From assembly GCA_026018925.1 (NCBI GenBank), contig JAKSZU010000011.1, positions 5,523,985 through 5,587,984 of the forward strand: a stretch of DNA of 64,000 nucleotides. The letters are read 5' to 3'. Of the stretch, positions 35,331 through 36,570 are shown piece by piece (position 1 is the stretch's first letter; every line of letters starts with the position of its first letter). The notes below the pieces were generated by a model. It was given only the letters and a program-made list of their open reading frames with translations, was not told where the DNA came from and ran no database searches. Made by a program: the position numbers and the translations under genes. This DNA comes from Tupaia tana. Its lineage: Eukaryota; Chordata; Mammalia; Scandentia; Tupaiidae.

Positions 35331-36570
35331 TTCTCTGAGAAGATTCCACATGGATACTGGGAACTAGATATTTCAGGGCACAGGCGAAATGAAGATTTTT
35401 CTACTCATAATTCAGCCTCCAGCAAGCAAAGCTAGTGTGGCAGGAGAGTTGAGCCATTCTCTGAGAAGATTCCACATGGATACTGGGAACTAGATATTTC
35501 AGGGCACAGGCGAAATGAAGATTTTCTACTCATAATTCAGCCTCCAGCAAGCAAAGCTAGTGTGGTAGGGAGCCCCTCTGGCCTTCTATCCCTGTCTCTG
35601 TGTCTCTGAGGTCTCTGTCTCTCTCTGCTCCTGTCTCCTCATTTTATTTTTGGTAATTTATCCTTTTTACGATTTTTTTAAAGGTAGAATTTCTCTCTGG
35701 CTCTCAGCTCCATCTTTTGTTTTGTTAATAAGCCCTTCTGCTCCTTTCTCCCAGGCAGGAGAGTTGAGCCATTCTCTGAGAAGATTCCACATGGATACTG
35801 GGAACTAGATATTTCAGGGCACAGGCGAAATGAAGATTTTCTACTCATAATTCAGCCTCCAGCAAGCAAAGCTAGTGTGGTAGGGAGCCCTTCTGGCCTT
35901 CTATCCCTGTCTCTGTGTCTCTGAGGTCTCTGTCTCTCTCTGCTCCTGTCTCCTTTTTTTTTTTGGTAATTTATCCTTTTTACGATTTTTTTTAAAGGTA
36001 GAATTTCTCTCTGGCTCTCAGCTCCATCTTTTGTTTTGTTAATAAGCCCTTCTGCTCCTTTCTCCCAGGCAGGAGAGTTGAGCCATTCTCTGAGAAGATT
36101 CCACATGGATACTGGGAACTAGATATTTCAGGGCACAGGCGAAATGAAGATTTTCTACTCATAATTCAGCCTCCAGCAAGCAAAGCTAGTGTGGCAGGAG
36201 AGTTGAGCCATTCTCTGAGAAGAATCCACATGGATACTGGGAACTAGATATTTCAGGGCACAGGTGAAATGAAGATTTTCTACTCATAATTCAGCCTCCA
36301 GCAAGCAAAGCTAGTGTGGTAGGGAGCCCCTCTGGCCTTCTATCCCTGTCTCTGTGTCTCTGAGGTCTCTGTCTCTCTCTGCTCCTGTCTCCTCATTTTT
36401 TTTTTTTGGTAATTTTTCCTTTTTACGATTTTTTTAAAGGTAGAATTTCTCTCTGGCTCTCAGCTCCATCTTTTGTTTTGTTAATAAGCCCTTCTGCTCC
36501 TTTCTCCCAGGCAGGAGAGTTGAGCCATTCTCTGAGAAGATTCCACATGGATACTGGGAACTAGATATTT
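35331..36570 (+). repeat. 5' monomer array of copy A, short and long units
   Basis: Each unit starts 'ttctctgagaagattcc'. Units: 35331-35456 (126 bp, short), 35457-35771 (315, long), 35772-36085 (314, long), 36086-36210 (125, short), 36211-36527 (317, long), 36528-36570 (43, truncated). A long unit equals a short unit plus about 190 bp between 'agtgtg' and 'gcaggag'. The extra part starts GTAGGG and ends in a pyrimidine tract plus CCCAG, i.e. a canonical intron (35565-35754 in unit 2). Probable promoter monomers, by analogy with tandem-monomer L1 5' UTRs. Confidence 0.92.

Follow-up and report, generated by a model that had tools for sequence, protein, structure and literature searches.

HAL1 elements, or half-L1s, are derivatives of the long interspersed element (LINE) L1 that hold open reading frame 1 (ORF1) only. 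Spliced copies of L1 have been reported from the human genome, where the spliced integrated retrotransposed elements (SpIREs) are described, in the sections of Larson et al. (2018; PMC5860796) drawn on here, as retrotransposed L1 copies lacking a segment of the 5' untranslated region (UTR) that is bounded by a splice donor and a splice acceptor. According to the same sections, SpIREs generally carry target-site duplications and poly(A), involve one donor and several acceptors and, with their weakened promoter, are generally a dead end. One that co-opted a gene promoter is described in passages of PMC13174262. For the mouse, sense and antisense splice sites in L1s are mentioned in the cited portion of PMC2176070, and a passage of PMC9022269, with reference to Belancio (2006), places predicted donors of L1spa in its monomers M8 and M7 and acceptors in M1 and the tether, and reports 22 genomic copies possibly produced by such splicing. 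PROsat of Phodopus roborovskii is presented, in the cited part of PMC6947457, as a LINE-1-derived satellite. The subject of the present analysis is a LINE-like family of Tupaia tana, two copies of which lie in a stretch of 64,000 nucleotides (the window; assembly GCA_026018925.1, contig JAKSZU010000011.1, forward-strand positions 5,523,985 to 5,587,984). Judged from its sequences, it is very probably a recently active, ORF1-only family derived from L1 (HAL1-like), in which introns of the 5' monomers and the tether ahead of ORF1 are spliced out and the spliced RNA is reverse-transcribed into intronless copies.

Probable monomer introns and the joints of intronless copies

The 5' array of copy 1 (35330-36571) was found to consist of a short, a long, a long, a short and a long unit, in this order, followed by a 61-bp partial exon. 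Each long unit comprises an exon of 125 bp and, after it, an intron-like segment of 189-192 bp, and the short units lack exactly that segment, as the first-pass annotation of the window had claimed. The limits it had given for the intron of unit 2 (Table 1), starting with GTAGGG and ending with a pyrimidine tract and CCCAG, proved exact, and its statement that the joint is precise to the base holds apart from a slide of one base in either direction, one of the three placements being GT...AG. All four full exons of copy 1 measure 125 bp, with those of units 2, 3 and 4 identical, and the three introns differ slightly, chiefly at T runs. When scored with approximate matrices, the monomer donor (GTG/GTAGGG) reached 5.85 bits, in the top 4.8% of the 6,677 GTs on both strands of the window, and the monomer acceptor (CTCCTTTCTCCCAG/G) 13.94 bits, in the top 0.2% of the 8,698 AGs. 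Within 35330-36900, the acceptor was the best of 113 AGs and one of 58 GTs outscored the donor. A YTNAY branch-point match lies 27 nt upstream of the acceptor. The intron shows no clear enrichment of pyrimidine motifs of the PTB type, with 16 occurrences against a mean of 10.4 and 88 of 1000 shuffles reaching 16.

Copy 2, on the minus strand, has neither introns nor tether and is 96% identical to copy 1 over the leader, ORF1 and the 3' region. Immediately ahead of the leader's CGATC, copy 1 shows the end of the tether (CTGCTGCACCAG), and copy 2 has the end of the exon there. One exon end is therefore joined to two unrelated sequences, the next monomer and the leader, each time directly after the AG of the unspliced form, which is predicted by splicing and not by chance deletion. 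The exon-leader joint can be slid by one base. A second leader AG sits 12 nt past the first, and in the tether the closest AG upstream of the acceptor lies 120 nt away.

These joints were counted by exact or gapped pattern searches across the 2.95-Gb genome assembly, with reversed patterns as controls. The exact exon-leader joint was found at 595 places, with both exon types represented (control, 0), and the exon end followed by 0-30 free bases and a leader anchor at 381 places (control, 0). The joint position was classified for 100 of the 381, and every one of the 100 lay at one of the two leader AGs: 96 at the first, small base variants included, 2 at the second, and 2 that carry nine further exon bases (GCAGGAGAG), one joined at each AG (in C7 and C297). 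A displaced-window control, in which the pattern was moved 24 bases into the exon so as to detect joints from which at least 7 bases around the usual position are missing, yielded 5 places of a single length, the one that a junction between the usual exon end and the second AG would produce; two of the 5 appear among the classified joints as just that. The unspliced form, with the tether running into the same anchor, occurred at 497 places (control, 0). Spliced places thus make up 43% of those countable (381 of 878), a rough figure because the exact anchor of the spliced pattern is longer and some of the 497 may be copies truncated within the tether. Among 53 unspliced tether rows with letters, the last six bases were CACCAG in 47, CACAAG in 5 and CACCTG in 1. 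Leader variants (CTATCACTACAG with CCG, CGATCAAAACAG and AAGCAG) were found at spliced and unspliced places alike, the simplest reading being that several lineages underwent splicing.

Twenty spliced copies, namely the first 21 exact-joint places minus the window's own, were read over about 1 kb each; since the exact joint was the search pattern, exactness of the exon-leader joint is in their case a matter of selection. The number of exons per copy ranges from one to eight (in the copy with eight, the array is cut off by the end of the stretch read), and all 29 of their exon-exon joints lie at the splice sites, two with a substitution in the next bases. The intron was not found in any of the 20, where short intron-like matches fall in low-complexity flank. 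The first-pass annotation had proposed that GT-AG introns are removed from RNA and the product reverse-transcribed back, and had named the deletion endpoints of family copies as the check; the exon-exon joints and the classified leader joints together support this proposal. Two further copies were read in C7, one at 9.5 kb and one at 14.4-17.3 kb, with bodies about 98% identical to copy 1. The former mixes short and long units and shares with copy 1 the arrangement of tandem 5' units and then a unique tether before ORF1, including the boundary ATATTTC/GCGYGG. The inverted repeat at 36572-36598 in the tether reads GCGCGG...CCGCGC in copy 1 and GCGTGG...CCACGC in the C7 9.5 kb copy, both arms having changed together. 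Intron and tether gave only short, low-complexity matches to each other, so that no common origin is shown.

Introns and tether go together: all 22 copies read that have no tether (the 20 spliced copies, copy 2 and the C7 14.4 kb copy) lack introns, and both copies read that keep it (copy 1 and the C7 9.5 kb copy) keep them. This association bears on the idea that the long unit is the derived one, a segment of about 190 bp having been inserted into an old 125-bp monomer. Short-only arrays, as in copy 2 and the 20 spliced copies, would fit such an insertion, but it would need two different insertions, intron and tether, at one point, both limited by GT or an exon end and by AG, and no target duplication was seen beyond GG; we regard it as scarcely credible. 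Splicing with reverse transcription also agrees with the ends of the copies. Target-site duplications were found in all four copies read at both ends, and the spliced copies with both a target-site duplication and poly(A) are copy 2 and the C7 14.4 kb copy, the reading of the other 20 having stopped short of the 3' end.

The 5' ends point to a probable transcription start site at exon position 17. Copy 1 and the C7 9.5 kb copy (two of the four read at both ends) begin there directly after the target-site duplication; copy 2 begins near position 28 and the C7 14.4 kb copy near 46. Among the 20 spliced copies, 5 start at position 17, 3 at position 24 and the others are scattered; in three of these rows the first match by script was flank. 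The motif CCATTCT at position 17 is one that we take to fit the initiator (Inr) consensus. In the C7 14.4 kb copy the array is built of five 134-bp units, each an exon followed by a second GCAGGAGAG. All five full units read GAG/GTGAGC where others have GAGTTGAGC, which places a donor of 9.8 bits exactly at the extended joint, so that a mutation appears to have made a strong donor there; the second GCAGGAGAG may be a 9-nt microexon or a DNA duplication.

The proposed course would be as follows. The 5' UTR would be a monomer array in which each full monomer comprises a 125-nt exon and a GT-AG intron of about 190 nt, and the tether would serve as the last part of the intron ahead of the ORF1 leader. 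RNA would start within one of the monomers, the likely point being close to exon position 17, exon would be spliced to exon and the last exon to a leader AG, and the spliced RNA would be reverse-transcribed into intronless copies, presumably by L1 proteins acting in trans. Unspliced RNA would retrotranspose too, keeping the introns going.

A satellite of the same unit and the weighing of alternatives

The monomer is also the unit of a satellite. The last 24 exon bases occur at 269,917 genomic places, dispersed copies included, or about 85 Mb if each place is taken as a 315-bp unit; this is an upper estimate, because the short-joint pattern itself occurs at 30,139 places. The parts read of C3 (23.7 of 24.2 kb) and C5 (10 of 24.2 kb) are tandem arrays throughout, of long units only. 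Two satellite subfamilies were distinguished among these long units, A (313-bp consensus, mean pairwise identity 97.0%) and B (317-bp consensus, 99.1%). Copy 1 matches type A, with no difference at 125 positions in the exons of units 2, 3 and 4 and 2 differences in unit 5, and copy 2 matches type B, its two full exons differing at 1 and 2 positions. The donor is GT in all 36 type A units compared (GTTGGG in two). In C22 most of the satellite is built of short-long dimers measuring about 437 bp; units also occur in some other orders there, and one has a break within its exon. In the mapped arrays introns are whole or absent; locus edges aside, the two shortest matches miss 7 and 4 bases at one end.

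It could be argued that segments of about 190 bp were deleted at the DNA level, by unequal crossing-over, microhomology joining or template jumping in reverse transcription. The amplification of the C22 units mostly as short-long dimers, with one unrelated exonic break, speaks for such deletion, as does a six-base resemblance at both intron ends of type B. Microhomology deletion is for that reason possible for type B exon-exon joints, a problem from which the leader joints are free. However, type A slides by one base each way and the exon-leader joint by one base, the mapped introns are not partly removed, the C3 and C5 parts have no short units whereas short units are all that the 20 leader-spliced copies contain, and neither the 595 exact leader joints nor the position of every classified joint at a leader AG is what deletion would give. 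Deletion at the DNA level is accordingly considered very improbable as the source of the joints, which were very probably made by spliceosomal splicing.

The mixture of units in copy 1 is a separate matter. The first-pass annotation had claimed that partial splicing leaves mixed arrays; the splicing part of this claim stood, and the mixture, once taken as proof of partial splicing, was dropped as evidence given the C22 satellite. Since satellite arrays already mix short and long units, the mixture of copy 1 may have been copied: arrays of this kind could come from transcription of, or recombination with, mixed satellite arrays. The mixed units of the C7 9.5 kb copy and the identity of three copy 1 exons to the type A consensus are in keeping with this origin, although partial splicing would look identical, and we rate it a serious possibility, a little short of even. 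The LINE array may have become the satellite, or the satellite the LINE array.

Several observations weigh against splicing as the source of the intronless copies. Splicing is read here from genomic DNA; the monomer donor is only moderate in score, and the tether acceptor is weak over its last 20 nt (2.6 bits), with the pyrimidine tract further upstream. The type B donor is GC in 27 of the 31 units compared (GCAGGG in 24) and poor by the matrix (-0.9 bits), and the start of the type B intron resembles the exon start over six bases (GGCAGG). One of the 53 unspliced tether rows (that with CACCTG) has no AG at the acceptor, 281 of the gapped-search places stand unclassified, and the shifted donor at exon position 9/10 comes from the reading of a single copy. 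Short units are also present in the C22 satellite, where amplification at the DNA level must have acted. Spliced copies may themselves have multiplied, and the 595 places are hence not 595 splicing events; that some spliced copies share a leader variant fits equally with such further rounds and with their absence.

Coding capacity and surroundings of the window copies

The coordinates of the family's features in the window are collected in Table 1.

Table 1. Features of the two family copies, with positions counted from the first nucleotide of the window.
Feature	Position	Strand	Remarks
LINE-like copy 1	35330..38940	+	3.6 kb; monomer array, tether, leader, ORF1, 3' region, poly(A)
Target-site duplication of copy 1	35313..35329 (5' copy); 38941-38957 (3' copy)	+	17 bp, AAAAGAGGATAATGTGG
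Monomer 1, exon only (short)	35330..35439	+	110 bp; begins at exon position 17, one extra T
Monomer 2 exon (long unit)	35440..35564	+	125 bp
Monomer 2 intron	35565..35754	+	190 bp; GTAGGG...CTCCCAG
Monomer 3 exon (long unit)	35755..35879	+	125 bp
Monomer 3 intron	35880..36068	+	189 bp
Monomer 4, exon only (short)	36069..36193	+	125 bp
Monomer 5 exon (long unit)	36194..36318	+	125 bp
Monomer 5 intron	36319..36510	+	192 bp
Final partial exon	36511..36571	+	61 bp; exon positions 1-61, at tether boundary
Tether	36572..36764	+	193 bp; CpG-rich inverted repeat, A/T stretches, pyrimidine tract, end CTGCTGCACCAG
ORF1 leader	36765..36869	+	105 bp; putative acceptor 1 before 36765 (CACCAG/CGATC), acceptor 2 before 36777 (CTACAG/AACGG)
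ORF1 of copy 1	36870..37872	+	open to 37670, in-frame stop codon there
Copy 2 with target-site duplications	56349..58790	-	AAAATCCCAAAAGGAGGGAGA at both ends; insertion proper 58,772 to 56,370
Copy 2 array	58425..58772	-	three short units (98 + 125 + 125 bp), satellite type B exons; first 2-3 bases overlap target-site duplication
Copy 2 exon-leader joint	58424..58425	-	AGTGTG/CGATC; tether and introns absent; among the genome-wide joint places
Copy 2 ORF1, open	57318..58319	-	333 aa; L1 RBD-like and dsRBD-like Pfam domains

The Pfam matches of ORF1 (PF02994 and PF17490) exceed the curated cut-off, and ORF1 is the only gene found in the family copies of the window. ORF2 was not found, the longest open stretch 3' of ORF1 being 90 codons in both copies, and two stretches of copy 1 that were searched against Pfam matched no family. 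With copy 1 only 3.6 kb long and bounded by its target-site duplication at both ends, the family would be ORF1-only and HAL1-like, and not a full LINE. In the 3' region of copy 1, two related 89-bp stretches (38314-38402 and 38764-38852) are 76% identical, as if two 3' ends had been joined. An Rfam search of 34000-39500 gave nothing at E <= 0.1.

The 60-kb stretch adjoining the window holds diverged relatives of the body alone (73-91% identity), with monomer, intron and tether all absent. Bacterial and viral contigs searched with the patterns and with ORF1 gave no relative; a protein match of 97% identity over 89% of the query, filed as Streptomyces narbonensis on a 2.3-kb contig, was taken to be most likely mammalian contamination. 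Elsewhere in the window, ARAGORN predicts a tRNA-Trp (CCA) at 45389-45462 (minus strand), an open frame at 51976-52434 (minus strand) resembles ribosomal protein L31 and is presumably a processed pseudogene, and a zinc-finger open frame, which like the L1-type ORF1 indicates a mammal, has matches in many vertebrates; among the 120 matches listed, five are from the colugo Cynocephalus volans (51-68% identity).

Comparison with known systems

Splicing appears to be a routine step in the life cycle of this family, whereas splicing of the human L1 5' UTR is rare and generally yields dead-end copies. The placement of the intron is such that its removal would keep the exon of every monomer, with the probable start site in it. 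Additionally, a satellite with splice sites in its repeat unit would link satellite transcription, splicing and retrotransposition. Introns are reported, in the cited part of PMC8770142, to shield transgenes from HUSH even without splicing. As a speculation that we consider rather doubtful, satellite and LINE might share a promoter-exon-intron cassette: transcripts from any repeat could splice into an ORF1 message, spliced complementary DNAs could seed intron-free or mixed arrays that become satellites, and the introns could aid escape from HUSH, which represses long intronless transcription units. Protection from HUSH by introns is testable here, with intron-bearing and intronless copies of one family present in one genome.

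The likeness to HAL1 that was observed concerns gene content: the ORF1 of the family encodes L1 RBD-like and dsRBD-like domains, and the search for an ORF2 gave none. We know of no tandem intron-bearing monomers in HAL1. With mouse L1s, as described in the passages cited above, the family shares tandem 5' monomers and a tether before ORF1, with predicted splice sites in both. There, however, the sites are called cryptic and two donor monomers are named, whereas here each long unit has a donor and an acceptor and each excision would leave the monomer exon in place. Satellites derived from transposable elements, such as PROsat in the part of its description cited, are similar in that the sequence repeated in tandem is found in a LINE as well; the unit here differs in combining an exon with an intron that has splice sites, and some arrays carry its intron-free version. 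A literature search by title and abstract opening, with most subscription journals outside it, turned up neither a LINE family whose promoter monomers each contain an intron nor a satellite whose units each have splice sites. The claim of the first-pass annotation that no LINE family with serially spliced monomers had been described is to be narrowed, spliced L1 copies and predicted splice sites in mouse monomers and tether having been published already. The closest resemblance is to SpIREs: the missing segment is likewise bounded by donor and acceptor, and copy 2 and the C7 14.4 kb copy end in the same manner, with target-site duplication and poly(A). The family differs from SpIREs in that spliced places stand at 381 against 497 unspliced ones with the same leader anchor, and in that an intron is present in each long promoter monomer, the exons left including the putative start site. 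Spliced L1 copies as such being already known, the family is, as read from its sequences, an extreme form of SpIRE formation tied to a satellite.
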